Source of the DNA: a virus
Reading direction: 5' to 3' (one strand)
IMG/VR virus record: IMGVR_UViG_3300009285_008010
Span: 1-23,144 of that record
Length of the DNA stretch: 23,144 bases
The position numbers and the translations under genes are program-made. The notes beneath the pieces are model-generated. The model worked only from the letters and a program-made list of their open reading frames with translations. It was not told the DNA's origin and searched no databases. Of this stretch, positions 9,301 to 23,144 are shown piece after piece. How positions within the stretch are numbered: the stretch's first letter is position 1; each line of letters begins with the position of its first letter.

Positions 9301-10576
9301 GAAATGGGGCCACGCCATTGCTTTTGATTGTATCCCACGACCCAACAAAGGCCCCCACGAAAATGCCGACGGCATCCGTAACGATGGATAACGCCTCAAC
9401 GGCTCTGGCGAACACCTGCACCGAGATCGACCCAAACTTGACGAAGCCGTCGATGACGGACTCGATGGTTCCACCGCTTGGCGCCAGCAGCTTCAGGCTG
9501 TCAATCAAGATCAGCACGGAGCCGCCGATAGTGTTGGCCCACTCGTCGAGCTTGCCCTTGCTCTGCAGGCGCTCGATCTCTGTCAGGATACCGCGAAACC
9601 CTTCCTTCGCAGCGCGAAACACGCCACTGTCAGAGATGGCGGCCCTGAAGTTGAACCAGGCATCAGACAGCATAGACATGATGCCGTTAAAGCTGGCCGC
9701 CTGCTTTTCCATCAGGCCGTTGAAGCCTTTGAACTCTCCGGACCCCTCCTGAATCACCTTGCGAACGGCCTCGACAGCCTCCTTCGCTGTACCAGTGAAC
9801 GACCCGGCCTTGGTGAACAGCTCTGGACGAAGCGCGCGCAGGTTGATGCCGAAGTCGCGGAACCGCTCCAGGGCCTCTCCGAAGTCGCCAGACTTCAGGC
9901 GCCCGAAAGCTCTAGTCAAGTCGAGGACGTTGGCGCCCGTGCCGGCAGCGGCGTTGCCGGCGTCCCGGAGCACCCCTTCGACCTCTTTCAAGGAAAAGCC
10001 GAAGGCCAGCAACTGGCGCCCGCCGGCGATGACCTCTGGAAGCTCGAAGGGAGTCTGTGTTGCGAAGTCACGGAACAGCTTCATCGCCTCCCTGGCCTTG
10101 TTCGTTGAGCCCAGGAAGGTGGCCAGGCTGATCTCGGTCTGCTCCAGGCTGGCGCCGATGGCGATGGACGACTTCGCAAGCCCGATGAACACTGCCGTGG
10201 CTGCTGCCCCGGCTCCAGCCACAGCAAGCAGTGGAGCGACGACGCCGGTAACCGCGGCTGACGCAGCCACCGATCCGGTGGTGACCTGCAACAGGCCACG
10301 GGACAGGTTCTTGATCCCGGCGCCCATTGTGGTCATCCCGGCCACCAGGCCGGACATACCACCGCCCATGACGCGGAAGGACGCGAAGAACTGCGACATG
10401 CCGATGCCCAGTCGAGCGACTCCGGCGGTCGTGTTCCGCATCGTTTGGTTGACGCCGGTGGCCTTGTTCTTGAAGGCTCCGAGGTCCTTCTCGGCTCCCC
10501 GCAGGTACTTGCCGAGTTGAGCGAATGCCCGAGCGGCGTCGTCCCGGCCCTTGATCGTTAGGACAATGTCGGGCAT
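6374..10576 (-). CDS. Tail tape measure protein
   Basis: 1400 residues, by far the largest complete gene here. The N-terminal 300 residues match tape measure style: a coiled lead segment, a hydrophobic Ala/Gly-rich stretch at about 100-135, then SLEQTEISLATFLGSTNKAR, a pattern familiar from tape measures. More hydrophobic segments follow (LTAGFVVLLLVDLP, PLTAAFAAAAALLVFP), with long helical spacers between. Residues about 840-1010 contain 40-residue repeats, two of which are nearly identical (DFDSDNAGKIVGAIKSGSGT). At about 1.5 angstrom per residue, the family rule of thumb, the tail would be near 210 nm. The ATG is three bases after the stop of the frameshifted chaperone, the standard arrangement. 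The protein fills the tail tube, sets its length and is probably ejected with the DNA. Confidence 0.95.
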   Translation of the reverse strand: MPDIVLTIKGRDDAARAFAQLGKYLRGAEKDLGAFKNKATGVNQTMRNTTAGVARLGIGMSQFFASFRVMGGGMSGLVAGMTTMGAGIKNLSRGLLQVTTGSVAASAAVTGVVAPLLAVAGAGAAATAVFIGLAKSSIAIGASLEQTEISLATFLGSTNKAREAMKLFRDFATQTPFELPEVIAGGRQLLAFGFSLKEVEGVLRDAGNAAAGTGANVLDLTRAFGRLKSGDFGEALERFRDFGINLRALRPELFTKAGSFTGTAKEAVEAVRKVIQEGSGEFKGFNGLMEKQAASFNGIMSMLSDAWFNFRAAISDSGVFRAAKEGFRGILTEIERLQSKGKLDEWANTIGGSVLILIDSLKLLAPSGGTIESVIDGFVKFGSISVQVFARAVEALSIVTDAVGIFVGAFVGSWDTIKSNGVAPFLSALLTAFGRTTSVILSELTAGFVVLLLVDLPKMAWAAFKLLIKVFTSVAYWTQLWDNVVTLFFQWLIRPMHVAWIALLERFSAALSYFGVNVTAELDDAKRKVEEIDKLEFKILDLTQIEGASQDIDDLKEALAGAGTTIGGAFVDAGADIMGVLSQLSAEVGLDTDLGVKLGALSTRMGDLFRPFEDAATRAKGAPGAIEEETKKAVEKMIPWWQKLADEIKGGIDQGVKEYAKSLGTLTKNVADETKKILGDLEKSLASGLKTLFFGREDQKALEKAADKLKSLRSLLGADSETGIQLDVFGESEAATSAEIARIQGIFDSATQGLSGGLSAQAGAVRDQILGLADPRATQESVDAAREALNDLIDKIEAQTGFMGRLRGFGSQMQDMVVEGFQTSLTDLLAAELMRGFVGMFIGGSAEEATAKAAGQRASGAVKEGVGELGLAEKVKTELGSVAGSIKDFDSDNAGKIVGAIKSGSGTLGNLETDVGSTIGSIAGKIKDFDSDNAGKIVGAIKSGSGTLGNLVTDAASVFTGVGTKITDFTTAHGGKAAGAIKEGFDTLDLGGKLRSAVDLVDSASLFGGGDSGLAGKLHGAFKTAWGGSSFAFIADKIGDAIDAIPTVLPPNIGGVTTLGSRLGNGIKNGLMVWAAGKGFEELTGINIPDPILKGLAFAEGVLGAFGTSIAQVVAEAFTAAGPLMPGGSWGSMVMMLLGNPLTAAFAAAAALLVFPDETIGLINDITGQDPAEPLPGVTEDLTSVPGAGARLDVAPGSHVADEGGSGQYNVAGQRTGESTQAPFGQRITQWLQDMWESRSISKGLALGFGRENEVETVRAISSSWPASMGDDFAISLANLAKGFNVDTSEGALRAFGFDVVARRGLSRVPGTPSTPVPAIVHGGEMILNARDAASVRSGGMSGGINVTFNLSSASDREMVQMLRAQMPMIQQAVSDGIRRGARFGLTEFDQRLIRSNLQS
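7728..7801 (-). repeat. Direct repeat copy in tape measure gene (74 bp)
   Basis: Identical base for base to 7848-7921. The period is 120 bp, exactly 40 codons, so the reading frame is kept. This is the C-terminal copy and encodes residues about 926-950. Confidence 0.9.
7848..7921 (-). repeat. Direct repeat copy in tape measure gene (74 bp)
   Basis: Partner of the repeat at 7728-7801, encoding residues about 886-910. The absence of even silent differences implies a recent duplication or ongoing gene conversion. Confidence 0.9.
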
Positions 10577-11459: not shown

Positions 11460-12653
11460 CTACAGGAAGCGGACCTTCAGCGAGTCGTTGCCGTTGACCC
11501 CGAGAGCCCGACCGGCGATCGACACGCGCATCATCCCCTGGTCCTGGATCTCTGGAGGTGACATGTCGAAGAAGGCGTTCTTCATGTGCATCTTGAGCGT
11601 CTTGTGCGCCTGACCGCCGATGTTGACCTGGATGTTCTGCGCGACGTTCCCTTCCATCTCGCCGATCAGAACCCCCACCTCATCCTTCTTCACCAGGAAG
11701 TCGAGGCTGAAGGTGACGTTGCGGCGATCATCGCGCAGCACCCGGCTCGGACTGTCGTAGCCAACCTCTTCGTTGAGAAGGCTGCGGTTGTCCTCGAACG
11801 TGACGCGACCACCGAGGCAGTCGATGAGAGTGGACGATCCGTCCAGGGAGACGAAGCCGAGGCGGGCGTGGATCGGACTTCCGGCCGTCGTCGGCACAGG
11901 GTTGTAGGGCACGATCGCGCGGCCCGACGACAGCGTGATCCCCAAGGACTCCGAGAAGGTGATGACGCCGGAGGTGTGGTTGATCGTGTCGATGACGATC
12001 CCAGATCCGCCGCCGCTGGACGTGTGCACCTTGAACAGGCTGCCGACGGAAAACTGGCGCGGAGAGGTGGCGCGGAACGACGACGCGGCAGACGCGATTG
12101 ACACGTATCCCGATCCCACCGACGAGTTGCCGGTCTTGCCCCAGTCCTTGGCCATGCCGCGGAAGGTGACAGTCGCCAGTCCGTTCTGCCCCTGGCTGCC
12201 GAAGGCGATCTCGCCGGAGTTGACGATGGCGCCCCGGACGTGGTCCTGGTACTCGGCCACCCCCTGGCCACCGCCGGTGCGGATCGCGCGACGAATCGTC
12301 AGGGACCAGGTGTGCGCCGTGGCCTGGATGTACTCCAGGGCTGTCGTGTTCATCGACAGGCGACCGAAGAGGTTTTGCCACAGCAGGTCGTTGTCCGGCT
12401 CCGTGGTCACTGACCCCGACGGGAGGATCAGGCACGACGCCTCCCACTCGGCGCTCTTACGGCCGACGTACCGCTCGAGGTGGTCCGAGCTGCCGGACCG
12501 GTCGGGCCTGGGCTCCCGCTCTTCTGCTGGCGTGAAGGAATCGCTGAGAGTGAAGAATGCGTCGGCGCCGTTGAGGCGCTGGGCCGCGCCGTACGAACCT
12601 TCGCGGTTGACGAAGAGTACGGTTTGGCTGCCGGGAAAGAGTTCGTTTGCCAT
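11460..12653 (-). CDS. Major tail tube protein
   Basis: 397 residues. The ATG at 12653 has a strong AGGGGGG site. The N-terminus (ELFPGSQTVLFVNREGSYG) and the repeated beta strands with Ser/Gly turns look like a tail tube protein, which forms the hexameric rings around the tape measure. Position immediately before the chaperone pair is the classical one for the tube gene. At 397 residues it is longer than many tube proteins; the section at about 185-245, with HTSSGGGSG and a repeated TSG, may be an inserted domain exposed on the tail surface. The last strands (VSIAGRALGVNGNDSLKVRF) close the fold. Tube identity rests on order plus overall look. Confidence 0.8.
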   Translation of the reverse strand: MANELFPGSQTVLFVNREGSYGAAQRLNGADAFFTLSDSFTPAEEREPRPDRSGSSDHLERYVGRKSAEWEASCLILPSGSVTTEPDNDLLWQNLFGRLSMNTTALEYIQATAHTWSLTIRRAIRTGGGQGVAEYQDHVRGAIVNSGEIAFGSQGQNGLATVTFRGMAKDWGKTGNSSVGSGYVSIASAASSFRATSPRQFSVGSLFKVHTSSGGGSGIVIDTINHTSGVITFSESLGITLSSGRAIVPYNPVPTTAGSPIHARLGFVSLDGSSTLIDCLGGRVTFEDNRSLLNEEVGYDSPSRVLRDDRRNVTFSLDFLVKKDEVGVLIGEMEGNVAQNIQVNIGGQAHKTLKMHMKNAFFDMSPPEIQDQGMMRVSIAGRALGVNGNDSLKVRFL

Positions 12654-12680: not shown

Positions 12681-12866
12681 TTACGAGGACTCGCCCGCCT
12701 CTTGAGCGCCCTTCTTCGAGGGGCGCACGGTGGCCGGAGGCTCCACTTCGGGGAGAAGGCGGAAGTTCTTCCCGGGGTTCGTGTCCGACTCGACGATCGT
12801 TCCTTTTTCGACCTGGGTTGCTCCGACCCTGCAGGGGCCACTGCCTTCGTAGACGTACTTGGCCAT
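12681..12866 (-). CDS. 61-residue protein related to the glycosyltransferase N-terminus
   Basis: Starts MAKYVYEGSGPCRVG and continues with IVESDTNPG; the C-terminal 20 residues are polar and probably disordered. AAGGAG lies eight bases before the ATG, so translation should be efficient. The first 38 residues match the N-terminus of the glycosyltransferase at 20365-21516 at 21 positions (MA-YVY-GS-PCR-G, ESxTNPG). It sits between the tail terminator candidate and the tube gene, so it is probably a virion or assembly protein. The DNA of the two copies has diverged, so the duplication is old or the modules were acquired separately. The biochemical role is unknown; a small beta-fold adaptor or decoration module is my guess. 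Confidence 0.75.
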   Translation of the reverse strand: MAKYVYEGSGPCRVGATQVEKGTIVESDTNPGKNFRLLPEVEPPATVRPSKKGAQEAGESS

Positions 12867-12882
12867 TGTTCCTTCTCCTTGG

Positions 12883-13371
12883 CTACAGCATTGTCACAAC
12901 GCGGATCGTCACCTGGGCCTCTTGGATCAGGCCAGAGTCTCCGGCCATCATCGGTGCGTAGTTCCGAGGTGGAACTGCCTGCGCGTCCTCGACGGTGCTC
13001 CCGAGGGTTGGGTTGTCCTGCAACACCTGCTGTATCGCTCGCAGGTACCGGCCGCACCGCCGCTTCAGGCGCTCCTCGTCGATGTTCCCTCCGTCGACGA
13101 CCGCGGCCGTCAGGTAGTGGAACTCGATGTCGTATCTGTCCTCACCGGTCGGCAGGCCCGGGTCGGCGCGGTCCGGGATGATGCACAGAAACGGAGGAGC
13201 TGCTAGCCGCCTCTTCTCGGCGATGAACATGCTGGCGCTCGGAATGGCCGGGAGACCGATTCCGTCGCTGTAGTCAGCGGCGACCGTCACCAGGGCAGCG
13301 TCCAGGTTGGCGCGCATGATGGTGACCACCTGGTCGGCGACCCAGACGGTGTCCTTCTTGCCGGCCCCCAC
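12883..13371 (-). CDS. Tail terminator / tail completion candidate
   Basis: 162 residues from a GTG at 13371, two bases beyond the previous stop, with GGGAG upstream in the end of that gene. It begins with a helix (VADQVVTIMRANLDAALV), includes FIAEKRRLAAPPFLCIIPD, and ends with a strand (EAQVTIRVVTML). This size, helix-then-sheet layout and position after the gpG-family gene and before the tube gene fit tail terminator or neck proteins (gpU type), which cap the tube. Similarity to a named family is not proven from sequence alone. Confidence 0.65.
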   Translation of the reverse strand: MGAGKKDTVWVADQVVTIMRANLDAALVTVAADYSDGIGLPAIPSASMFIAEKRRLAAPPFLCIIPDRADPGLPTGEDRYDIEFHYLTAAVVDGGNIDEERLKRRCGRYLRAIQQVLQDNPTLGSTVEDAQAVPPRNYAPMMAGDSGLIQEAQVTIRVVTML

Positions 13372-13372
13372 G

Positions 13373-13888
13373 TCAGAAGTTCTCCCGCTCGAACTGCCCG
13401 GACTCGATCAGGAACTTGTGCACCAGTCGCACCCAGAACCGGGCCTGCGCCTCGGTGATACGGATGGGCTCGCGGCGCTTCATGCTCGTTGTCCCGGTCT
13501 GGTGGCGCCCGGAGTACGGAACCCTGGTGCCAAACGACATCGACGTAGGCATCGGCATGAACACCGCGTCCGGATGGTTGCGCTGCGTCAGGCTGTCCAT
13601 GAGTCGTCCGGTGCGAACCAGAATCTTCGATCCGAATCCCTGTGCCCTTTTCCTCGCGGCGTACGCTGGGTTCAGTGGAGCCCACGCCCCCCACGGGCCC
13701 GCGGTCTCCATCTCTCTGGTCGGGCTACCGGAGTTCCCCTGCCGCACGAACAGGACCCGCTCTCGTTTCAGGAAGTCGTCATACAGGTCCTCCCACACGG
13801 GACGCAGGTCCTTGATCGCGGCGGCCGACACGGCCAGCGCCCGGTTCACCTGCTTCACGCCCGCGATCTCGATGGCCAGTTGGAACAC
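13373..13888 (-). CDS. Virion morphogenesis (gpG / tail completion) family protein
   Basis: 171 residues, GTG start at 13888 with AGGG upstream. The pattern WAPLNPAYAARK followed by ILVRTGRLMDSLT is the signature of the phage virion morphogenesis family (Mu gpG / P2 gpS like, PF05069), which acts in head-tail joining or tail completion. Residues after about 105 carry FGTRVPYSGRHQTGT, also typical of that family (a Y-x-x-x-H-Q-x-G element). It follows the neck candidate by eight bases. The gpG label here is the Mu/P2 family, not the lambda chaperone G. Confidence 0.8.
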   Translation of the reverse strand: MFQLAIEIAGVKQVNRALAVSAAAIKDLRPVWEDLYDDFLKRERVLFVRQGNSGSPTREMETAGPWGAWAPLNPAYAARKRAQGFGSKILVRTGRLMDSLTQRNHPDAVFMPMPTSMSFGTRVPYSGRHQTGTTSMKRREPIRITEAQARFWVRLVHKFLIESGQFERENF

Positions 13889-13896
13889 GGGTCACC

Positions 13897-14397
13897 CTAC
13901 CACTGGGTATCCATGGTGAACGTCGGCTCGCGCTCGACGCCGTTGACGGGGCTGAACGACGCCGCTGGCTTGCGCTCCCCGTCGTGGCGGGTCGGGTTTC
14001 CGGTCCTGGCAGCGCCCGGCAGCGTGACGTCGCCATTCTTCAGCGCCGTCCACATCCGGGAGTACTCTTTCTGCAAGAAGTCGGCCGTGTCCGAGCTGCG
14101 GCCGTCGACGCTGGCAGCCGCGGCCTCGATGGAAGACGCCACGCCGACTGCCGACATCCGGCGCACGTAGGCCAAGCCGGTCGAGTTGCCGCTGGCGATG
14201 GGAATGACGAAGCCCATGACCGACAGGAGCGAGTTCAGCTCCTGGAACCTGTCGCGCGCGATCGCGCACGCTTGCATCCTGGACGGCCGCGTGTAGGCGT
14301 TGTCGAGGGTGACGTGCGGGATGTGGGCCAGGATGGCGGAAAACGTCGCGTAGCTGTCGACGCTTACCTCCAGGCTCTGTGTTGAGTTGAGGCTCAC
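13897..14397 (-). CDS. Neck/connector candidate, unknown family
   Basis: 166 residues from a GTG at 14397. The GTGA overlaps the stop of the sugar epimerase gene by four bases, so translation is probably coupled to the glycan island. The sequence starts SLNSTQSLEVSVDSYATFS and is mixed alpha/beta with a polar Pro/Gly C-terminus. The segment LDNAYTRPSRMQACAIARDR resembles gp6-type head-tail connector proteins only loosely. Position just upstream of the gpG-family and terminator genes argues for the neck. The function is inferred from order alone. Confidence 0.6.
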   Translation of the reverse strand: MSLNSTQSLEVSVDSYATFSAILAHIPHVTLDNAYTRPSRMQACAIARDRFQELNSLLSVMGFVIPIASGNSTGLAYVRRMSAVGVASSIEAAAASVDGRSSDTADFLQKEYSRMWTALKNGDVTLPGAARTGNPTRHDGERKPAASFSPVNGVEREPTFTMDTQW

Positions 14398-15407
14398 TTC
14401 AGGGCCTCCAGGTTGGAGGTGACCCAGGCGTCGATGTCGATGATCACGGTCTCTGGGCTACGAGACGGCTCCCATCCGTACCGAGCCTTCACCTTCGAGG
14501 TGTCGGACACGTAGTGCGCGAAGTCGGCGCGCCGCGGCGTCCCTGATTCCGTCACCCGGGTAGACATCCCAGTGACCCCCTGGCACAGCTCCGTGCACTC
14601 TCGCAGGCTGAGGCTGTAGCCGCCGCCGCCGACGTTGAAGACCTGGGCCCCTGCTTCCGGGTCCAGGATCTGCAGGCTCACCAGGTCCGCCAGGTCGTCG
14701 ATGTGCAGGACGTCCCGGACCTGCAGGCCCTCGAAGCCGATGTACTCGAGGGGCAGCCCAAGGCGATGGGCGATCACCCACCATGCCACCCAGCCCTGTT
14801 CGACCTTGCCCCACTGCCACGGCCCGGCCAGGCAACTGCAGCGGTTCACCACCGCCGGGAACCCGAAGGACTCGGCCCATTCCTGGATGATCAGGTCGCT
14901 GGCCACCTTCGAGGCCCCGTACAGGCTCCGGTCCCCGCCGTCCAGCGGGCACGTCTCGTCGATCCGGACGTCCGTGTGCAGCCGGGTTGGCCGCCGCTCC
15001 AGGGGGCCATTCTGGGCATCTACGGCCCAGACCGGGTAGGCCTTGTTGGAGGACCAGAAGACCACCTGGGCGCCAGACCGGCGGCAGTGCTCCAGGAGGT
15101 GCAGCACTGCGACGGTGTTGTTCTGGAAGTCGAACATCGGGTTCCGGTAGCCGTCGATGGCAGACGGCTGCGCCGCGCAGACCAGGATCGTCTCCGGGTC
15201 GAACTCCGACAGGAAAGCCCAATCCTCTGGGCAGCGGGTGTCGGCGTGCTCGAATCGGACCCCGGCCTCCGACAGCCTGACCAGGTTTCGCTCCGACCCC
15301 CGCCGACGCAGGTTGTCGGCCGACGTCACGTCGTGACCATGGCGAGACAGGCTGACGGCCAGGTTGGCGCCCACGAAGCCGGCACCGCCGGCGATCAGGA
15401 CCCTCAC
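14394..15407 (-). CDS. CDP-tyvelose 2-epimerase-like SDR enzyme
   Basis: 337 residues from a GTG at 15407 that overlaps the previous stop (GTGA), with GGAGG eight bases upstream. Rossmann motif GGAGFVG at 7-13; catalytic pair Tyr163 and Lys167 (YGASK); Ser119-Ser120 in the SSNKAYP segment. The stretch around GPWQWGKVEQGWVAWW then LQVRDVLHIDDL closely recalls CDP-paratose 2-epimerase (RfbE), where a comparable yDQGWVgWF...QVRDVLHaeD occurs. Enzymes of this group invert C2 of a CDP- or related sugar using bound NAD. The substrate cannot be read from sequence; other extended SDR epimerases or dehydratases are possible. It directly precedes the neck genes. Confidence 0.82.
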   Translation of the reverse strand: MRVLIAGGAGFVGANLAVSLSRHGHDVTSADNLRRRGSERNLVRLSEAGVRFEHADTRCPEDWAFLSEFDPETILVCAAQPSAIDGYRNPMFDFQNNTVAVLHLLEHCRRSGAQVVFWSSNKAYPVWAVDAQNGPLERRPTRLHTDVRIDETCPLDGGDRSLYGASKVASDLIIQEWAESFGFPAVVNRCSCLAGPWQWGKVEQGWVAWWVIAHRLGLPLEYIGFEGLQVRDVLHIDDLADLVSLQILDPEAGAQVFNVGGGGYSLSLRECTELCQGVTGMSTRVTESGTPRRADFAHYVSDTSKVKARYGWEPSRSPETVIIDIDAWVTSNLEALK

Positions 15408-15754
15408 AGGCTGACCTCCGCTGCGAGGGCGCCACGGCCTGCCGTGGGGGCTCTCTTGGCCGGCTTCTTGGACGTGGGGCCGTCCGAACGCAACGGCTTA
15501 GCCCTCGACGCCTGACCCCGCCAGGGGGCCCTGCTCGTGGTTCGCGCCCAGGCCCGCGGCCCCCGTCCCGCCCGGCCGCCCGTCCGTGGCAGAAGGCCCG
15601 TGAGGCTGCGAGCCGGGCGACTGCCCCTGGCCACCTGGATCTGCCCCACCATGTCGAGCGCGTAGATCCGCCGCCGAGCCCGGCTGAGCGCCTCCAGCTC
15701 GAGCCCGAGGCCGGTGGCCAGGGCGTGGATCTCTTCGTGGTTGTGGGGCTGCAT
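15404..15754 (-). CDS. Basic protein of unknown function
   Basis: 116 residues starting MQPHNHEEIHALATGLGLEL. The ATG at 15754 has a perfect AGGAGG six bases upstream; the frame is open much further back, but that part overlaps the WecB-like gene. The N-terminal 45 residues look helical; the remainder is very rich in Arg, Pro, Gly and Lys (RGALAAE near the end) and resembles nucleic-acid-binding or disordered tails. No family recognised. The stop overlaps the epimerase start (GTGA). It sits between two sugar enzymes, so it may be a spacer gene with an unrelated role. Confidence 0.6.
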   Translation of the reverse strand: MQPHNHEEIHALATGLGLELEALSRARRRIYALDMVGQIQVARGSRPARSLTGLLPRTGGRAGRGPRAWARTTSRAPWRGQASRAKPLRSDGPTSKKPAKRAPTAGRGALAAEVSL

Positions 15755-15760
15755 GGGGGC

Positions 15761-15766
15761 CCTCCT
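15761..15766 (-). promoter_or_regulatory. Consensus Shine-Dalgarno, sets start of the basic protein
   Basis: AGGAGG with a six-base spacer before the ATG at 15754. It is preceded by a GCCGCT ATC AGCGGC hairpin at about 15772-15786, which has no T-run and so is not a terminator. Confidence 0.7.
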
Positions 15767-15806
15767 CCCTTGCCGCTGATAGCGGCGGGAGTGGACCCCT
15801 GTGGGA

Positions 15807-16946
15807 CTACGCCGGGGGGACCGGCGAAAGCAAGATTCGCACCACGGCGTCAGCCGTCGGCCGAGACGTGTAGTCTGGTGGCGTCTTGTTGAAGCCGCGG
15901 TCTCCGGAACATGCCGCCTCAGCGGCCACCCGAAGGGGCAGGCTGCTTCCTGGGGCCCACAGGACGGCCCCACCGCGCTCCATCACCTCCTGGCGCTCCA
16001 TGTAGTCCCGCAGGACCACCAGGGGACGGCCGAGCATCGCGCACTCCTCTGGGGCCGTCCCGGAGTCGGACAGCACCAGCTTGGCCGTTGCCTCCAAGGC
16101 GACGAACTTGCCGAACGGCAGAGGGTCGACGTCGACGATACGTCGACGATACGAGGCCTCGTCGCGGGCATTGCGGACCCCAATCGCCTTCAGGCGCGCG
16201 CGGGTCCTTGGATGGGTCGACAGGACGCACTTGGTGCCCAGGTGCACGCACAGGTCGTTGATCGCGTCCAGGAACGCTCCCAGGCGCTCCGGATCGTCCA
16301 CATTCTCGGCCCGGTGAAGGGTGGCCAGGATGCCAGGGCTACCCAGATATGGCGACCAGGTGGAGCGCATCCACGGCTCTGGCTCCATGACGCTGCGATT
16401 GGAAACCGAGAAGTACCCCGCCAGCACCTCGGCCAGTGGGTTACCCACCACATACGTCCTCGCCAGCGGCAACCCCTCCGCAACGAGATTCATCCTGGCC
16501 CGTTCCGAGTAGCAGAGATGCACCGTAGACACGTGGTCGATGACGCGGCGGTTGACCTCCTCCGGGCTCTGGGGGCCGTGGCACCGGTTGCCGGCTTCAA
16601 GGTGAAACACCGGGACGCCAAGCCTGGCCGCGATCAGGGCGCCGACGGAGCTGTTCGTGTCGCCCAAGACGAGAAACTTGTCGGGCCGGAAGTCGCGCAA
16701 CCACGCCTCCAGCTTCGGCAAGAAGATGGCCATCTGCTCTGCGAAGGCGCCGCCTCCAGCCTCCACGCGCACGTCTGGCGCGCGCAGGCCGAACTCCTTG
16801 AAGAGATCGCCGTCCAGCTCGGGGGAGTAGTTTTGGCCGCTGTGAAAAACGCCGTGCGAAGCGCCAAGCATCCCGTCGAGCAGCGGAATGATCTTAGAGA
16901 GGCGGACGATCTCCGGACGTGTCCCGAGAACCGTGGAGACCTTCAT
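15807..16946 (-). CDS. wecB: UDP-N-acetylglucosamine 2-epimerase (non-hydrolysing)
   Basis: 379 residues, close to the 376 of E. coli WecB. It begins MKVSTVLGTRPEIVRLS, the family start. Asp96 (GDTNSS), Glu118 (HLEAGNR), Glu130 (PEEVNRR) and His211 (LHRAENVD) stand at the places of the E. coli Asp95, Glu117, Glu131 and His213 residues. LSDSGTAPEECAMLGRP near 292-308 is the UDP-binding signature. It interconverts UDP-GlcNAc and UDP-ManNAc. The start at 16946 is supported by ATGA overlap with the small membrane peptide; an in-frame ATG at 16961 is less likely. Close relatives (SpsC/NeuC-type) act on modified UDP-HexNAc, so the substrate may be a derivative. Confidence 0.92.
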   Translation of the reverse strand: MKVSTVLGTRPEIVRLSKIIPLLDGMLGASHGVFHSGQNYSPELDGDLFKEFGLRAPDVRVEAGGGAFAEQMAIFLPKLEAWLRDFRPDKFLVLGDTNSSVGALIAARLGVPVFHLEAGNRCHGPQSPEEVNRRVIDHVSTVHLCYSERARMNLVAEGLPLARTYVVGNPLAEVLAGYFSVSNRSVMEPEPWMRSTWSPYLGSPGILATLHRAENVDDPERLGAFLDAINDLCVHLGTKCVLSTHPRTRARLKAIGVRNARDEASYRRRIVDVDPLPFGKFVALEATAKLVLSDSGTAPEECAMLGRPLVVLRDYMERQEVMERGGAVLWAPGSSLPLRVAAEAACSGDRGFNKTPPDYTSRPTADAVVRILLSPVPPA

Positions 16947-17068
16947 TTCGTCAAATCCCATTCCCACGCCTCGTCGTCGAGTAAAATCATACCAATCCAA
17001 CTTCCAAGCACGGGAGCGAGAACAACGACCAAGGTCCATCCTAGTGTCCGTCGCAGTCGGCGTCTCAT
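16943..17068 (-). CDS. Small single-span membrane peptide (41 residues)
   Basis: MRRRLRRTLG, then a hydrophobic run at about 11-30 (WTLVVVLAPVLGSWIGMILL), then an acidic end DDEAWEWDLTK. Positive charge before and negative after predicts N-in, C-out. The ATG overlaps the stop of the RmlD-like gene (ATGA) and the TGA overlaps the ATG of the WecB-like gene (ATGA), so the ORF exactly fills the gap with coupled translation at both ends. This exact tiling in a co-directional operon makes chance unlikely. GGGA lies five bases before the ATG. The function is unknown; a membrane anchor for the sugar enzymes is possible. Confidence 0.72.
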   Translation of the reverse strand: MRRRLRRTLGWTLVVVLAPVLGSWIGMILLDDEAWEWDLTK

Positions 17069-18015
17069 GTCCGTCCCGTGTTCCAGTATTCAAAGCCGCG
17101 GTCGTGTGTCGGCCAGTGCTCTGCCCTGCAGAACTCGGCCAGCTCCCACACCATCTGCTCGACGGTCGGGGCGCCATCGTAGCCACCTTGACGCCAGAGC
17201 CAGTCGACGACCTCTGGAGCCGACGTCGCCAGGCGCATGTCCACGGGCCATCCCGTCAGCACGGCATTGACGACCCGCTCCTTCAGCCTGAAGGCCTGCA
17301 GGATCGTCGACACGAGCCGGTCCTTGCTGACCGAAGAGGCCGGCACGAGGTGAAATAGCCACCGCTCAGCGGGGATCGACACCGGGCCACACGCCGGCAT
17401 GAGTTCTCCCCCCATGATCCCCATCGCGATCTTCGCCCAGGCCAGCGTCGTAATGCCGTTCCACAGATGGTCGGCGTAGCCGGCGCCGATGAACCCGCCG
17501 ACCACATTGCCCAAGAGGTGGCGAGGCGGGAAGCGGCACTCCGGTCCGATGATCGACGCCCGAAGCCGAATCGTGTTGGCCAGCGGCCCTTCTTCTCCGT
17601 CGCCCTTCGACTGCCCGTACTCGTTCACCGCGTCGAAGTTAGACTGCTCCGCGTACGGAGCCCTTCCTCCACTGCCGTCGAACACGCAGTCTGTGCTCGG
17701 GTGGAGAACCGGCGGGCCCAGGCCGTCAACCACTCGCGGGAAGTGCGCGTTGACGGAGTAGGCGGCGTCCTCCTTCATCAGAGGCTTCGTTGCCCCGATG
17801 CAGTTGACGATCCAGTCACACCCATCGGCGAGGCGCTTCAGGTCCTCTTGCCACGCCGTGTGGTCGACAGCGAATCGTCGCCACCAGGTGTTCACCAGCT
17901 CGTACGGGTAGGGCGCCGGCACTCGCGCGGTGACCAGGACTTCCCACTCGTCAGGCAGCACCTTGGCCACCATCGAGCCCAGCATACCGGTGCCGCCAAG
18001 AACGAGAACCTTCAT
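17065..18015 (-). CDS. RmlD-like sugar-nucleotide reductase
   Basis: 316 residues. Rossmann motif GGTGMLG at 7-13; PSTDCVFDG at 106-114 with Ser107-Thr108; YGQSKGDGE with Tyr133 and Lys137. These are the marks of the RmlD substrate-binding family, which reduces a 4-keto sugar nucleotide (dTDP-4-dehydrorhamnose in the classic case). The start overlaps the previous stop (ATGA). The C-terminal part is longer and less conserved than in RmlD, with WPVDMRLATSAPEVVDWLW, and the family also includes reductases for other keto-sugars, so the substrate is left open. No RmlA or RmlB gene is in the window. Confidence 0.83.
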   Translation of the reverse strand: MKVLVLGGTGMLGSMVAKVLPDEWEVLVTARVPAPYPYELVNTWWRRFAVDHTAWQEDLKRLADGCDWIVNCIGATKPLMKEDAAYSVNAHFPRVVDGLGPPVLHPSTDCVFDGSGGRAPYAEQSNFDAVNEYGQSKGDGEEGPLANTIRLRASIIGPECRFPPRHLLGNVVGGFIGAGYADHLWNGITTLAWAKIAMGIMGGELMPACGPVSIPAERWLFHLVPASSVSKDRLVSTILQAFRLKERVVNAVLTGWPVDMRLATSAPEVVDWLWRQGGYDGAPTVEQMVWELAEFCRAEHWPTHDRGFEYWNTGRT

Positions 18016-18254
18016 CCAACCAGCTCCTTGAACTTGGCCTTCGCGTCGAACAGCGCGTCGTAGACCTGATCCCTGTGCGCGACGTTCAGGTAGTCCACCT
18101 CGATCTGCCGCCCGCTCCTGAGCGTGATCTGCAGTCCGTCGATCACCTTCTCGGTGTCCCCCACCAAGCGCAGCAGGTTGACCTTCTTACAAGCGGCAAC
18201 CTCTTGGACCTCGACGAAGAACGTCTCGCAGTCCAGAAGGATTCCGGCAATCAA
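18012..18254 (-). CDS. Small protein of unknown function
   Basis: Eighty residues if the TTG at 18254 is used; that TTG overlaps the stop of the cupin gene (TTGA), matching the operon's habit. Alternative GTG starts at 18284 and 18293 would overlap the cupin gene by 34-43 bases. The sequence has beta-strand-like parts (LLDCETFFVEVQEVAAC, ITLRSGRQIEVDY) and an acidic/basic helical end (VYDALFDAKAKFKELVG). No motif recognised. The stop overlaps the RmlD-like start (ATGA). No ATG is available in the frame, so the start is uncertain. Confidence 0.6.
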   Translation of the reverse strand: MIAGILLDCETFFVEVQEVAACKKVNLLRLVGDTEKVIDGLQITLRSGRQIEVDYLNVAHRDQVYDALFDAKAKFKELVG

Positions 18255-18763
18255 CGGAAGGACTCGTCCCAGACGCCGGGCCACTGGTCCCACGGCAGCC
18301 GCCGGTCGTCATCTCGAGCTTGTTCGATTGTCGCCGTCGAGAACACCCCGAGGATCGCGCCGTCGGTTAGGCTCTGATGGCCGTGATACCACCCCCCTGG
18401 CACGTGGAGAATTTTCGTCTGGTCGAGAACGAGCCTCTGTGGCTTGGCTTCGACGATCTGCACAGGACGTTCCCCTGATGTGGCCGTGGACAACTTGGTG
18501 TCCCGCTCTGCGACCAGCCTGTCTATGTCCCCAACTGTAGCCACTTTCCACACCCCAGAGACAGGCCACAGAAAAGTGCCCGATGTCGCGTGGCCGTGCC
18601 ATGCGCGCACAAAGCCTCGGCGATGATTCCGGACCATGTAAAAACGCGCGACTCCAGCAAGGCCGAACTCGTTGCAAAACGTCAGTACGCCGCGGTCGTC
18701 AACCGACCTAGCGGCATTGATGAGCTTCGGCTCACTGTCATACTGGATCGTCATACTCCCCAT
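18251..18763 (-). CDS. RmlC-like cupin sugar isomerase/epimerase
   Basis: 170 residues. RAWHGHATSGTFLWPVSGVW at 53-72 and HVPGGWYHGHQSL at 120-132 form the two faces of a cupin active site, with His56, His58 and His127. The layout resembles the dTDP-4-keto-6-deoxyglucose 3,5-epimerase and the 3,4-ketoisomerase (FdtA/WxcM) groups. The second group is smaller and so fits better by length. It acts on the keto-sugar made by a missing 4,6-dehydratase. ATG at 18763 has GAGG five bases upstream; the ATG at 18754, overlapping the epimerase stop as ATGA, is the alternative. Confidence 0.78.
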   Translation of the reverse strand: MGSMTIQYDSEPKLINAARSVDDRGVLTFCNEFGLAGVARFYMVRNHRRGFVRAWHGHATSGTFLWPVSGVWKVATVGDIDRLVAERDTKLSTATSGERPVQIVEAKPQRLVLDQTKILHVPGGWYHGHQSLTDGAILGVFSTATIEQARDDDRRLPWDQWPGVWDESFR

Positions 18764-19683
18764 CTTGCCCTCTGGTGTTCGCGGTTGTGGAACCGCTGGG
18801 CGTCCGGATTGGCGAGTCGCCCGGACGTATACAGGTCGATCACTTCCCGGACACCTTGCCGTACCGTCGTAGCGGGAGCGAACCCAAGCACGTCCCTGGC
18901 CTTCTCTCCCAGGACTCGGTAGTCCCTGGCGTCCGCTCCGGGGTCTTCCCGCCAGTGCACTTTCAGCGACGGGGCCTCCGCCGCCACGGTCTGCGCCAGT
19001 TGCCCGATGGTCAGGTTGGCACCGACCAGGTTGTAGATGCCCGATGGCCCGGCAAGCCCTAGCACCATGGCCGCCGCTGCGTCCTTTACGTGCAGGAACG
19101 GCCTCCACTGCTTCCCTCCGAACACCTCGATGCTGCGGTTCCGGACCGCCGACACCGACATGGCGTTGATGACCAGGTCCAGGCGGAAGCGGCCGTGCTC
19201 TCCAGGTAAGCCGAACAGGGTCCCAAGCCGGAAGACCACAGCGTCAGAGTCCCTCAGGCGCGTTTCCGCTTCTGCCTTCGTCTTTCCGTAGACCGACAAC
19301 GGAGCGACGTCCGACTCCTCGGACAGAAGCTCGTCCCTCCTCCCGTATACGGAGCACGTCGAGGGAAACACGATGCGCCCGCCAAACGCCTTCCTGGCGA
19401 AGTGTACCGCGTCGGCGTTCGTCAGTCGCGCGACCTCCTGCTGTACCTCGCAGACGGCATCGCCAACGAGAGCCGCGAGCCACACCACGGCGTCGGCCCA
19501 GTTCAGGTGAGGCACCAAGCGTGCCCAATCCAGGACGTTGCCACAGGCGAAGTCGACGTCACGTAGGTAGATGTCGTCGTACATCAGAGCATCGAATACG
19601 CGCACGTCGTGGCCAGCCTCCAGCAGGGCGCTGACTGTTGGCGCCCCCAGGTATCCGCAGCCGCCAGTGACCAGGACCTTCAC
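18751..19683 (-). CDS. NAD-dependent sugar epimerase/dehydratase
   Basis: 310 residues from a GTG at 19683 overlapping the previous stop (GTGA). Rossmann motif GGCGYLG at 7-13; PSTCSVYG at 107-114; catalytic Tyr132 and Lys136 (YGKTK). Later FRLGTLFGL and the FLHVKDAAAAMV segment are typical of UDP-glucose 4-epimerase-like extended SDR enzymes. The open frame extends upstream of the GTG, but that part overlaps the preceding gene. Epimerisation or reduction of a nucleotide sugar is expected; GalE-type, GDP-sugar and 4-ketoreductase activities cannot be separated by eye. Confidence 0.85.
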   Translation of the reverse strand: MKVLVTGGCGYLGAPTVSALLEAGHDVRVFDALMYDDIYLRDVDFACGNVLDWARLVPHLNWADAVVWLAALVGDAVCEVQQEVARLTNADAVHFARKAFGGRIVFPSTCSVYGRRDELLSEESDVAPLSVYGKTKAEAETRLRDSDAVVFRLGTLFGLPGEHGRFRLDLVINAMSVSAVRNRSIEVFGGKQWRPFLHVKDAAAAMVLGLAGPSGIYNLVGANLTIGQLAQTVAAEAPSLKVHWREDPGADARDYRVLGEKARDVLGFAPATTVRQGVREVIDLYTSGRLANPDAQRFHNREHQRARWGV

Positions 19684-20297
19684 TTGGAACCTGCGTGCCG
19701 TTCGCAGACCAGCGTTCTCCCGCCGTCGACGAACCCTGTGGCTGGGTTCGGGCATCCAGCGGCGGAACACGCAACTGTGCCCTCTCTGACGCTCAGCATC
19801 TCTCGCAGCATCTGGTCCCCAGCGTTGACCAGGTCGCTGCGTCTCTGGTTGGAGCCATCGCACACTAGCTGCCACTCGTGCAGCTCTCGATAAGCATCCT
19901 CGTAGCCGGTAGAGCCTGCTCCGCTGAGTCGCTTCCTCAGCGCCATGATCTCGTCCTGTGCTTCCCAGTACCTGGCGTGACAGGCGGTCAACTCGGAGAT
20001 GATGGTCCCTATGGACGAGGCCGTCCCAGGCAGATGGCACTCGTGCTCGTGGAATCGTAGGACCTGGTTGACCCGCGGTTCCCGGTGGCCGCTGATGCAC
20101 TCAGCCAGGTACAGGGACGATGTGTCGACCAGTTCAGCGGCCTGTTCCCTGGCGACGGCCGCTTCCGCGGCTTTGTCTGGGTCTCGGCAGAAGTGGTAGT
20201 ACTTCAACTGGCAAATGATGAGTCTATCAACAAGCTGCATCCAGGAGTCGACCACACGCAGGCCCGGAACCTCGTAGTGCAGTGACGGCATATTCAT
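19680..20297 (-). CDS. Possible DUF4254-like protein with zinc-finger-like end
   Basis: 205 residues from the ATG at 20297 with GGAGG eleven bases upstream; a TTG at 20435 is the alternative but would read through the end of the glycosyltransferase gene. Two helical blocks, about 16-60 (SWMQLVDRLIICQLKYYH) and 97-160 (ISELTACHARYWEAQDEI ... SNQRRSDLV), resemble the L-I-D-R-L...W and N-Q-x-R-x-D-L-I segments of DUF4254 proteins, which occur in polysaccharide gene clusters; this is from memory. Residues 177-201 have Cys178, Cys182, Cys198 and His201 in a zinc-finger-like arrangement (CxxxC...CxxH). Function unknown. Confidence 0.6.
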   Translation of the reverse strand: MNMPSLHYEVPGLRVVDSWMQLVDRLIICQLKYYHFCRDPDKAAEAAVAREQAAELVDTSSLYLAECISGHREPRVNQVLRFHEHECHLPGTASSIGTIISELTACHARYWEAQDEIMALRKRLSGAGSTGYEDAYRELHEWQLVCDGSNQRRSDLVNAGDQMLREMLSVREGTVACSAAGCPNPATGFVDGGRTLVCERHAGSK

Positions 20298-20380
20298 CTG
20301 CGGTTCTTCCTCCGCGAGTCGCGCTGCATCCGACGGAGCTTCCGCTTCTTCAGCCAGGCCTTCTTTACGCTGGTCGACAC
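20294..20380 (-). CDS. Candidate 28-residue highly basic peptide
   Basis: Starts with GTG at 20380, with GGAG seven bases upstream, inside the last codons of the glycosyltransferase gene. Its TGA overlaps the ATG of the next gene (ATGA). It fills the 67-base gap between them in a third frame. Fourteen of 28 residues are Lys or Arg (KKAWLKKRKLRR, then SRRKNRR). The site and the overlaps argue for translation; the short length argues for caution, because open frames this short arise by chance. If real, it could bind RNA, DNA or membranes, or serve only to couple translation across the gap. Confidence 0.42.
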   Translation of the reverse strand: MSTSVKKAWLKKRKLRRMQRDSRRKNRR

Positions 20381-21516
20381 GGTTCGTCTCCAAGGACAAT
20401 GGGAATTCCTGATAATTCTGCGCTGTCGACAACAAGATTATATGGGCATGGATTGTTCTGTGTCCACGCGAATGTCCGGTCGTCCCTGTGATTCATAACC
20501 TTGTAGTCACCAAGTTGGTGAATAGGAACAACGTCCGCCCTATCCAACACCATCTCCTTCTCTTTGGATGAAGGGTACTTCTTGCGAGACGCCACGACGA
20601 AGGCCTTGAATAACTCGCACTCTGGAGATGGATGTTTGACAGACAGGGGAGTGCCAGCAATAACTCTTCCCCAGAGGACCTCATATGCCTCAAGCAGAAG
20701 CGACGTTTCCCCCATGAAAACGTGGTCGCCGACGTGTGTCCGGTATTCCTTCGACCACAAGATGTTTGCCGACACTAATCGTCGTTTGTTTGCCAAGAAC
20801 TTATCAACCATCGGCAACAGATTAGTAACGTGCTCATCATTGCGGACCCTGATGACATACTCGGCATCACATCTCTCCAGTGCTGCTTTCACTCCCGCCA
20901 CCTGATATGCGAACCGTTGCCAGTGTGGCGGCCACCCGGACGAAACTGTTGGTCTCTTGGTTCGCGCTATCACCACGCCATTGGCAATCGGAACCCTACG
21001 CTCGTCTTGGTCCTCAAAAAACTGCACGATCACAGGGCCCAGGCTTGCGTAGTAATCTACCGTTGTAAGGTCCGTGTCTTCCATAAGCAACCCGGACGAA
21101 ATAACGGCCATTGAGCCAGGCGCAGGGCTCCTGTCTTTCGGAGGCATGACTGCGGCGACACGTGCGATCTCGACGACTTTTTCCTGGACACATTCGGGCC
21201 CTTCTTCCTCTACTACGGCCCGGTGGCGAATGGCCGCCAAGCACTCCCGCTTGTTCTTCGAAAGAAACGTGCGCAGGTCGTCTGGGAGGCCGTCCGGGGC
21301 ACGCCACCTGATGTTGTCGCCGTATACTTCCAGCGAAACGCCTGCCGCTGAAGCGCGGGCCAGCATGGCCTCGACGACAGAGGGCACAGGCAGCCCTGGC
21401 GCAACCAGATGAAACCGCCGACCAGGGTTTGTCTCTGACTCTATGACTTCTCCCGGATTGACAAGTCCAGACCCAATCCTACATGGGGCGCTTCCATCAT
21501 ATACGTACCGCGCCAT
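20365..21516 (-). CDS. Modular WavE-like glycosyltransferase with two docking-type domains
   Basis: 383 residues from the ATG at 21516. Residues 1-40 (MARYVYDGSAPCRIG) match the 61-residue tail-operon protein. Residues about 46-100 (LARASAAGVSLEVYGDNIRW, DGLPDDLRTFLSKNKRECL) resemble the TubC_N docking domain, known at the N-termini of some NRPS/PKS proteins and elsewhere. Residues about 135-355 resemble WavE-type lipopolysaccharide synthesis glycosyltransferases: WQRFAYQVAGVKAAL, then AEYVIRVRNDEH at 219-229 as the likely nucleotide/metal site, and HVGDHVFMGE at 261-270. The donor and acceptor are unknown. The gene is visibly more AT-rich than its neighbours. It follows the methyltransferase by four bases. 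Confidence 0.75.
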   Translation of the reverse strand: MARYVYDGSAPCRIGSGLVNPGEVIESETNPGRRFHLVAPGLPVPSVVEAMLARASAAGVSLEVYGDNIRWRAPDGLPDDLRTFLSKNKRECLAAIRHRAVVEEEGPECVQEKVVEIARVAAVMPPKDRSPAPGSMAVISSGLLMEDTDLTTVDYYASLGPVIVQFFEDQDERRVPIANGVVIARTKRPTVSSGWPPHWQRFAYQVAGVKAALERCDAEYVIRVRNDEHVTNLLPMVDKFLANKRRLVSANILWSKEYRTHVGDHVFMGETSLLLEAYEVLWGRVIAGTPLSVKHPSPECELFKAFVVASRKKYPSSKEKEMVLDRADVVPIHQLGDYKVMNHRDDRTFAWTQNNPCPYNLVVDSAELSGIPIVLGDEPCRPA

Positions 21517-21520
21517 TGGC

Positions 21521-22141
21521 TCATGTTTCTCTGCGCGCAAACCACCATGCCCGGTGGTCGTGGGCCCACGTCCAGTTGTTTCTCGCTTTCCATGTGTAAT
21601 TATGATGGCCGACGTTAAGCCCGGGATCAACGACGCGCATCGAGGCCATACCATTGGATGACAATTCGCGCTCTATCCATTGCGGAGACGGCCGACACCC
21701 TATGCGGTCAAGTGACTGATCGTAGTCAACGTGCTCTGTCAGAAACAACATCGCCTGCGAATCGTCACAATCCAACACCAACGAGTCAACGACCACGTTA
21801 TCGCTGTGGCCACATGCCCACTGCAGAAATGCCGCTGGTTGCCGGAGGTGGTATAGTATCCCGAGCGCAAGAATCATATCAAACCTACGTGCCAAGCGTG
21901 GATCGTTCAGCACGTTGAAATCAACAACCATGCTGCGCGCTCTGTTGGCAATGTGTTCTGGGCGCCCGTCGGCATAGAAGGCCGTCGCACCAATTTTCTC
22001 CAGGCCGTCGCCTATGTATCCATGCCCGCATCCGCAATCTATGACGCTGGCCCCGCTGAAGAACTCGCGCGCATAGTGGTCGACTATCACCGCCAGTCTC
22101 TTGGCGCTCCACTCTTTGTACGTGTCTGTCCAGACGGTCAC
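21521..22141 (-). CDS. Class I SAM-dependent methyltransferase
   Basis: 206 residues from a GTG at 22141 overlapping the previous stop (GTGA). Motif I is VIDCGCGHGYIG at 33-44, which binds S-adenosylmethionine; MILALGILYHLRQP further on is the usual motif around strand 4-5 of the UbiE/Methyltransf_11-23 type. Placed among sugar genes and just before a glycosyltransferase, it probably methylates a sugar hydroxyl, a phosphate or a glycan end, capping or modifying the chain. Small-molecule or DNA targets cannot be excluded, but there is no target-recognition domain or DNA-methylase catalytic motif (such as DPPY). The gene is more AT-rich than the flanking ones. Confidence 0.83.
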   Translation of the reverse strand: MTVWTDTYKEWSAKRLAVIVDHYAREFFSGASVIDCGCGHGYIGDGLEKIGATAFYADGRPEHIANRARSMVVDFNVLNDPRLARRFDMILALGILYHLRQPAAFLQWACGHSDNVVVDSLVLDCDDSQAMLFLTEHVDYDQSLDRIGCRPSPQWIERELSSNGMASMRVVDPGLNVGHHNYTWKARNNWTWAHDHRAWWFARRET

Positions 22142-22866
22142 AGTTTCCACGGACGGGCCTCCAGGGCGAGCTTCAGGTCGGCCGGAGTTCCGAGTCCCCA
22201 CATGCGTGGCACAGGGTAGGCGATGATCCTTGCGCCGTCCACGATCATCTCGTTGTAGGACGGGCAGAGGTAGTACTCATTATTCACCCGGCGGCCACCG
22301 TCCATCATCTTCTTGATGGACTCGAAGCAGTCCACTGCTCGGCGCCAGTAGTAGATCCCGACGGTGGCGTCCTGGCTGATCGGCACCTTCTCGGCGACCT
22401 CGGTGACGACCATGTCGTCTCCGAACTTCGCATAGGACCACTTCGCCCCCGAGGCCCTGAACGTCACGATGGCGCCGTCGCAGTCTTCGCGCCAGACGTA
22501 GGCGGCAAAGTGATCATGGTTCCAATCGACCCACTGGTCGGAGTTGGCGATCAACAGAGGGTCGTCCGGCCTGAACTCGTTCCGAAAGTCGTAGATCGTC
22601 GCCGCGGTGCCATCCGGGTTCGCGCCCCACAGGAGCGTTTTGACTGGACATCGCAGGGATAGCGACTCGGCCATCTCCCTGTGCTCTTCGAGCGCGTTGA
22701 GAACAACACCATCATTACTGAAGGCAGTCGGCAGATTGTAGACCACCCGCTCCACCATTGGCACGCCGTCCACGTCGATGAACGGCTTCGGCTTCTCGTA
22801 CCCGGCCTCGGCGAACCGCCGTCCCTTGCCGGCCATCGGAATGAGGATCTGCAGCCCGCCGCTCAT
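22138..22866 (-). CDS. Sugar-phosphate nucleotidyltransferase
   Basis: 242 residues; the ATG at 22866 overlaps the HAD gene stop (ATGA). MAGKGRRFAEAGYEKPKPFI at 11-30 is the glycine-rich nucleotide-binding motif and lysine of NTP_transferase enzymes; NSDQ at 108-111 holds the metal-binding Asp, and EYYLCPSYNEMI plus WGLGTPADL lie in the C-terminal half. It transfers a nucleotidyl group from an NTP to a sugar 1-phosphate (or other phosphate), the activation step for later enzymes. The nucleotide and sugar are unknown. No LbH hexapeptide tail is present, so it is a single-domain form. Confidence 0.87.
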   Translation of the reverse strand: MSGGLQILIPMAGKGRRFAEAGYEKPKPFIDVDGVPMVERVVYNLPTAFSNDGVVLNALEEHREMAESLSLRCPVKTLLWGANPDGTAATIYDFRNEFRPDDPLLIANSDQWVDWNHDHFAAYVWREDCDGAIVTFRASGAKWSYAKFGDDMVVTEVAEKVPISQDATVGIYYWRRAVDCFESIKKMMDGGRRVNNEYYLCPSYNEMIVDGARIIAYPVPRMWGLGTPADLKLALEARPWKL

Positions 22867-23144
22867 TTCCAGTTCCCTTCGTCGATGATCTTCCTGATCG
22901 TCAGGTAGTTGACCTTCTGGTAGACGAGCTGCGCGACGTGGCATCCAGCATCCGTCGCCGACTGCACGCCCCGTTCGTGGTCCTCTACGGCCAGCGCTTC
23001 GCAGGGCCGGACGTTCAACCTCCGACACGCCAGTAGGTACGGGTCCGGCGAAGGCTTGGGACTGACAACGTCCTCGTTGCTGACGGTATCCGTCATGAAT
23101 TGCCGCAATTCAGACCGGTCCAGCAGTGCGTCAACGGACGCGCG
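22863..23144 (-). CDS. HAD-family sugar phosphatase, N-terminus outside window
   Basis: Only the C-terminal 93 residues are present. SPKPSPDPYLLACRRL carries the motif III Lys followed by PxPD, and AVEDHERGVQSATDAGC the motif IV Glu-Asp, as in beta-phosphoglucomutase-like HAD enzymes. Motif I (DxDxT) and most of the cap lie beyond base 23144. These enzymes dephosphorylate or mutate sugar phosphates, which fits a supply step before the nucleotidyltransferase. The stop overlaps the next ATG (ATGA), so the two are probably coupled. Confidence 0.85.
   Translation of the reverse strand, partial: RASVDALLDRSELRQFMTDTVSNEDVVSPKPSPDPYLLACRRLNVRPCEALAVEDHERGVQSATDAGCHVAQLVYQKVNYLTIRKIIDEGNWK

Follow-up and report, generated by a model that had tools for sequence, protein, structure and literature searches.

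An N-terminal module shared by a small tail-operon protein and a sugar-cassette enzyme with a predicted docking-type domain in a probable tailed-phage fragment

The IMG/VR virus record IMGVR_UViG_3300009285_008010 is 23,144 bases long and was analysed in its entirety (the window). It is probably a fragment of a tailed-phage genome, and the genes on which the argument turns all lie on its minus strand. One of them, among the tail genes, encodes a 61-residue protein. Another, 7.5 kb upstream and inside a sugar cassette, encodes a 383-residue enzyme that begins with a copy of the same small module and continues with a predicted docking domain of a type known from nonribosomal peptide synthetases (NRPS) and polyketide synthases (PKS). 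Homology, conserved gene position, a shared fold, the docking-domain fold, purifying selection and the cassette context were computed, and the arrangement suggests, without proving it, that the enzyme is brought to some partner, the virus tail for instance. Phage-encoded transferases, virion glycosylation, docking domains and small SH3-like phage proteins are known already; what appears new, within the collections and literature searched, is the combination seen here. The features are listed in Table 1.

Over residues 1–38 the free protein and the enzyme are identical at 21 of 38 positions without a gap. This is the count given by an earlier sequence-only reading of the window, which placed the small gene at 12681–12866 and the start of the enzyme at 21516, both correctly. 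The local BLOSUM62 score is 142, compared with 28.4 ± 4.5 for 3000 shuffles, the highest of which reached 58. When the record was searched in six frames with the enzyme module, the small gene was the only other place found (E = 6e-14), and the reciprocal search agrees. Clear sharing is limited to residues 1–39. The fusion of one copy to the enzyme, also claimed in that reading, is supported by an uninterrupted frame of 383 codons. Between the copies, identity is 67% at first, 77% at second and 28% at third codon positions, and the same codon is used for only 7 of the 21 shared residues. The proportion of differences is 0.86 at silent sites (pS), which are thus saturated, and 0.28 at nonsynonymous sites (pN). 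The similarity has therefore been kept by selection at the protein level and is no assembly duplicate. Both copies are under purifying selection and their relationship is old; the saturated silent sites rule out a recent duplication.

IMG/VR scans with single sequences and with stricter patterns found nothing, and it was a looser degenerate DNA pattern of the module that opened up the family. This pattern retrieved three records, each with a 60-residue free relative and a tail operon collinear with that of the window (47–53% identity for the major tail protein (MTP), the 547-residue, 260-residue and neck proteins). An MTP alignment used as query led to further lineages. In all eight (the related records L006/L005/L007, L011/L012/L013, L014, L015, L033, L034 and L035, plus the window) the gene directly upstream of the MTP encodes a protein of 58–73 residues that starts with the module. 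The window's MTP is 52–63% identical to those of L006, L011, L014 and L015. A module profile finds one copy in each of 11 related records and two in the window. Divergent copies may escape pattern-based scans and per-genome searches, and many of the related records are fragments, in which a missing second copy is no proof.

We define the small-module family by a module of ~40 residues, in which Y6, G8 and R13 are common and G15, G22 and P31 mostly present, and by a gene directly upstream of the MTP. The free protein belongs to it by both sequence and synteny, the enzyme copy by sequence only. The sequence-only reading had assigned the free copy to the tail operon, and its place next to the MTP proved to be conserved in all eight lineages; most likely, the tail operon of this phage family includes the 61-residue protein as a conserved accessory component. 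The enzyme module keeps the family-common residues Y4, Y6, G8, R13, G15, G22, E26, P31 and F35, and with the window's tail protein it additionally shares V5, S9, C12, S27, N30 and G32, which L006 does not have. It has 21 identities with the window's free protein and 11–18 with the proteins of the relatives. In a tree of the module copies (38 columns) those of the window are each other's closest relatives, with a support of 94/97 that lies slightly under the tool's own threshold.

For the free protein, AlphaFold2 (AF2) predicts five short strands over residues 1–38/40, with a predicted local distance difference test (pLDDT) of ~89, and a disordered C-terminal stretch of ~20 residues (pLDDT about 50). 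In the model of the enzyme the N-terminal module has the same fold (pLDDT 90–95). Models of both modules had been proposed in the sequence-only reading, for which different folds would have spoken against a common module; since the predicted folds are the same, we regard both copies as one confidently predicted ~40-residue beta module. Matches to solved structures are weak (Foldseek E ~5 to SH3 domains; VIA-align Z 2.0–2.7 to SH3 domains, the best row being a GINS subunit with Z 3.2), and on these models the module is probably SH3-like. A Foldseek search of BFVD shows that it resembles many uncharacterised phage proteins of 50–80 residues (best E 0.004, probability 1.0). The fold is thus probably common among small phage proteins, some of them from the head-tail region, whereas in the collections searched the sequence family did not appear outside this phage group. 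The sequence-only reading knew of no such system; by its fold, the module is less unusual than that reading suggested.

The nine module sequences gave no Pfam match at E ≤ 1 and a best PHROG match of E 0.15, and hidden Markov models of named small phage families (e.g., DUF2635, Mu gp38-like) did not match the module. It was not found by sequence in 398 Pseudomonadota genomes. A pattern scan of 84,980 genomes returned two matches, both unrelated by translation and due to chance; the module on many unrelated non-phage proteins, which the sequence-only reading had named as counter-evidence, was seen in neither set. The MTP was found in none of the 84,980 genomes, and thus neither a prophage nor a host was found. 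Sequenced phages and plasmids gave no convincing match for the small protein, for the enzyme or for any of the tail proteins; matches to a lysin A (E 0.2), a Stenotrophomonas phage prohead protein (E 9) and a Serratia phage (E 1) are at chance level. The MTP homologue of L006 weakly matches the tail subunit of Caulobacter phage Sansa. Beyond this match, no isolated relatives of the group were found, and Sansa has no annotated module-like gene before its tail subunit.

Between the module and the catalytic part, enzyme residues ~44–104 form a domain that is absent from the sequence-only reading. AF2 predicts an alpha-beta-beta-alpha-alpha order (helices 45–57, 79–87 and 89–104; strands 61–65 and 68–72). 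The TubC_N model PF18563 matches the whole protein with E 6e-5 and 23.5 bits, under the 26-bit Pfam cut-off, and scores 27.5 bits in the six-frame search, above it; phmmer matches the region to TubC (2jug). With VIA-align the best match is the AerJ docking domain (8aqq, Z 7.9). The top eight rows, among them AerJ, EpoB, Kj12A/B/C and an enacyloxin protein, are all NRPS/PKS docking domains (Z 5.4–7.9), and the next, unrelated match has Z 3.4. A Foldseek search of BFVD with the whole enzyme gave mostly noise from the unmodelled part and a TubC_N-type domain in another phage protein (A0A6J5MQD0, probability 0.93). As the domain is preceded by the 43 residues of the phage module and followed by a part that matches no NRPS/PKS domain, its context is not that of an NRPS docking domain, and we describe it as a beta-hairpin docking-type domain by predicted fold. 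Beta-hairpin docking domains recognise a short linear motif at the C-terminus of a partner and hold enzymes together (PMC9113145). A second module of a known docking type, as the models predict, makes a recruitment role more plausible.

For the catalytic part, residues ~130–383, no match was found in Pfam, PHROG, NCBIfam or PDB, and its AF2 model is of low confidence. The WavE model PF07507, which recovers true members elsewhere, found nothing in the window at E ≤ 10. A weak similarity to WavE-type glycosyltransferases is collinear over Q..GVKAA...R.D...KR...H.GD...G; the alignment scores 52 compared with 32.6 ± 4.8 for shuffles, 0.6% of which reach 52, and hhalign gives E 0.24. A decoy open reading frame (ORF) scores 43, so the similarity is no more than suggestive. 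The sequence-only reading called the enzyme a glycosyltransferase outright; none of the libraries used here names it so, and we keep the label as a reasonable guess from this similarity.

Clear homologues of the NTP-transferase, the DUF4254 protein, the HAD fragment and the epimerase adjoining the tail genes lie ahead of the tail genes in L014, L015, L034 and L035, where the cassettes additionally hold radical-SAM and other enzymes. Judging from these homologues, the cassette is an old feature of the phage group, and the docking-module enzyme appears particular to the window. The GC content at third codon positions (GC3) is lowest in the enzyme (0.59) and the methyltransferase (0.64), compared with 0.70–0.91 for the other genes compared. 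Along the enzyme it is 0.47 in the module, 0.49 in the docking domain and 0.58 in the catalytic part, against 0.79 in the free gene. The low GC3 would favour import of the whole enzyme, module included, from another phage, and the module tree would favour an origin in the lineage of the window itself or in one close to it. Because silent sites are saturated and the enzyme module shares the low-GC3 bias, the fusion does not stem from a recent local copy event. The fused copy ends where the free protein turns disordered, and thus a whole domain was taken. The sequence-only reading had suggested a search for the module on other enzymes, and none was found in the 11 related records. A second IMG/VR or sequenced-phage record with the enzyme was not found either, nor was the combination of tail-operon paralogue, docking domain and sugar enzyme elsewhere in the collections and literature searched.

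We propose that a copy of the folded part of the tail-operon protein became the N-terminus of a cassette enzyme, in the window's lineage or in a close donor relative, and now precedes a beta-hairpin docking domain of the NRPS type and a putative glycosyltransferase. Through the first module the enzyme would bind what the free tail protein binds, plausibly a protein of the tail or neck or its assembly intermediate, the second would bind a short linear motif of another protein, and a sugar would thereby be put on, or near, a virion component. That both modules serve recruitment, with the first directing the enzyme to whatever the free tail protein has as its partner, we hold tentatively and at somewhat less than even odds. 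We do so because a whole domain was copied without its disordered tail, because it is closest to the window's own tail protein and under purifying selection, and because a docking fold comes next. The activity of the enzyme, its partners and the virion as its target are what we infer from the computed features. The virion as target would have a precedent in mycobacteriophages, where phage-encoded glycosylation of capsid and tail-tube subunits is reported (Freeman et al., 2023, as cited in PMC12619734). The full statement, in which the phage addresses a sugar enzyme to its own virion by means of a fused duplicate of a tail-operon protein and an NRPS-type docking domain, is possible but on balance doubtful. 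The earlier interpretation as a whole is partly supported: the shared module with one predicted fold and the tail-operon gene stand, the purifying selection and the docking-type domain add to them, and the glycosyltransferase label, a recurrence of module-bearing enzymes and a virion protein as partner have found no support.

Several observations weigh against two-module recruitment. The catalytic part has no family assignment, and the transferase-like genes of the relatives show no detectable homology to it. Phage proteins often contain small beta modules of such a shape, and the role of this one could instead lie in stability or oligomerisation. Furthermore, the fusion is known from one metagenomic contig, and the 11 related records, many of them fragments, have no second copy. 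The module could be a structural passenger: an old recombination would have joined the start of the small gene to a docking-domain transferase, and the module would have been kept solely for the start, solubility or oligomerisation that it provides, without binding what the free protein binds. In favour of this, phage genomes are mosaics, the enzyme and the methyltransferase may, by their GC3 below that of the neighbours, have come as a unit from elsewhere, and the fusion was seen once, with a fold that is common in small phage proteins. The strong purifying selection, however, includes V5, S9, C12, S27, N30 and G32 and exceeds what maintenance of the fold would explain, unless these residues merely reflect shared recent ancestry. 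We consider the passenger a serious explanation, but a rather unlikely one.

Beta-hairpin docking domains normally chain the enzymes of one pathway (PMC9113145), and with its epimerases, its RmlD-like and FdtA-like proteins and its NTP-transferase the cassette looks like an envelope-sugar pathway. Both modules might thus dock the enzyme to other cassette enzymes or to the carrier of the sugar acceptor, the product being a glycan, free or on the host surface, that is unconnected with the virion. Such a pathway scaffold would leave unexplained why the first module copies a tail-operon protein whose position beside the MTP is fixed in eight lineages, and we judge it unlikely. The presence of the enzyme on one contig, with no second record, is also what an assembly chimera or ORF artefact, absent from any real genome, would give. 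The frame is uninterrupted over 383 codons, however, with the family start (M-A-K/R-Y) in place, the gene is coupled to the upstream methyltransferase at 5 nucleotides, and the module, docking and catalytic parts have a similarly low GC3, all of which makes an artefact very improbable.

The proposal that the enzyme is recruited through its two modules bears on the question by what means the modifying enzymes that phages encode select their substrates among virion proteins. Should the module be an address tag, the target could be identified from the small protein together with the enzyme. If true, a general rule, by which an enzyme is joined to a duplicate of a protein from the structural operon, may be sought in other phages, and NRPS-type docking domains would have left their usual setting for a phage sugar pathway. 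Independently of this, the analysis defines a family of conserved tail-operon proteins in this phage group and a sugar cassette that recurs in it.

Table 1. Features of the window, with coordinates, strand and basis of assignment (aa, amino acids; nt, nucleotides).
Feature	Coordinates	Strand	Basis
Free 61-aa module protein	12681..12866	-	ORF; folded module residues 1-39 (12750-12866)
N-terminal module of enzyme, residues 1-39	21400..21516	-	21/38 identity; AF2 pLDDT 90-95
Beta-hairpin docking (TubC_N-type) domain, predicted, enzyme residues ~44-104	21205..21387	-	PF18563, phmmer, VIA-align
Putative WavE-like GT-A glycosyltransferase part, residues ~130-383	20365..21129	-	Weak similarity; unconfirmed label
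Enzyme ORF, 383 aa	20365-21516	-	ORF list
Major tail protein (MTP)	11460..12653	-	Inferred from position; directly downstream of free module gene
162-aa gene, probable tail terminator	12883..13371	-	Inferred from position; upstream of module gene
Tail completion/neck protein (Phage_tail_S)	13373..13888	-	PF05069 E 5e-6; phrog_26 E 2e-10
Tape measure protein	6374..10576	-	PF20155 E 3e-5, under curated cut-off; L006 counterpart in same place
DUF4254 gene adjoining enzyme	19680..20300	-	PF14063 E 1e-5, slightly under curated cut-off
SAM (S-adenosylmethionine)-dependent methyltransferase	21521..22201	-	PF13489 E 7e-9; stops 5 nt ahead of enzyme start
Sugar cassette	14394..23144	-	NAD-epimerases, WecB-like 2-epimerase, RmlD-like SDR, FdtA-like cupin, DUF4254, enzyme, methyltransferase, NTP-transferase, HAD (partial)

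The tail genes follow the classical order 166-residue gene, Phage_tail_S neck protein, 162-residue gene, small protein, MTP, chaperone-like genes, tape measure and distal tail genes. The 162-residue gene is conserved in position and sequence (42% identity to L006), and the tape measure of L006 matches PF20155 with E 6e-63. In two lineages (L011 9262–9747, L012 and L013; L033 6491–6964) an extra gene of ~160 residues separates the module gene from the probable tail terminator; its product has a hydrophobic stretch and no Pfam match. The tape measure of L006 (6038–10675) contains a ~30-residue internal repeat, 'GYDWSFADYNAARRGQGFSLEGMYDTAAKQPM', in many copies, and that of the window (6374–10576) a ~28-residue repeat, 'GKIKDFDSDNAGKIVGAIKSGSGTLGNL', as one pair. 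An HNH endonuclease gene (4913–5584, plus strand; PF13392 E 2e-11) lies between the 547-residue and 260-residue tail genes of the window. As these two genes abut in L006 and the HNH gene is on the opposite strand, it is a probable homing endonuclease insertion.

DUF4254-like proteins are a constant of the cassettes (window 19680–20300, L014, L015, L034 and L035). Radical-SAM enzymes are encoded in those of L014 (6585–7721), L015 (6428–7414), L033 (3486–4619), L035 (3190–4344) and L034 (3194–5278 and 5828–6826), with Pfam confirmation for L034 only; one of them has a B12-binding domain. In the cassette of the window, a 93-residue ORF at 18012–18293 without a family match partly overlaps the FdtA-like gene.

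Among small phage proteins, gp10 of Mycobacterium phage Charlie and gp11 of Xanthomonas phage DIBBI match the module with Foldseek probabilities of 0.75–0.97 (E 0.2–0.3), the UniProt entries being assigned by length and position. The gene of Charlie gp10 lies between those of the head-tail stopper and of the major tail protein, and that of DIBBI gp11 between the major head protein gene and the neck genes. Both thus resemble the window's free protein in length and genome region, although sequence similarity of Charlie gp10 to the module is undetectable, and both are free proteins only, unlike the enzyme-fused copy of the window. The beta-hairpin docking domains of NRPS/PKS subunits sit at the extreme N-terminus, whereas the one predicted here sits behind a 40-residue phage module and precedes a non-NRPS enzyme in a phage sugar cassette. 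Mycobacteriophages with glycosylated virions have, as the window probably does, sugar-transferring enzymes encoded in a tailed-phage genome. In the sections of PMC12619734 drawn on here, these enzymes are not said to begin with a copy of a tail-operon protein.

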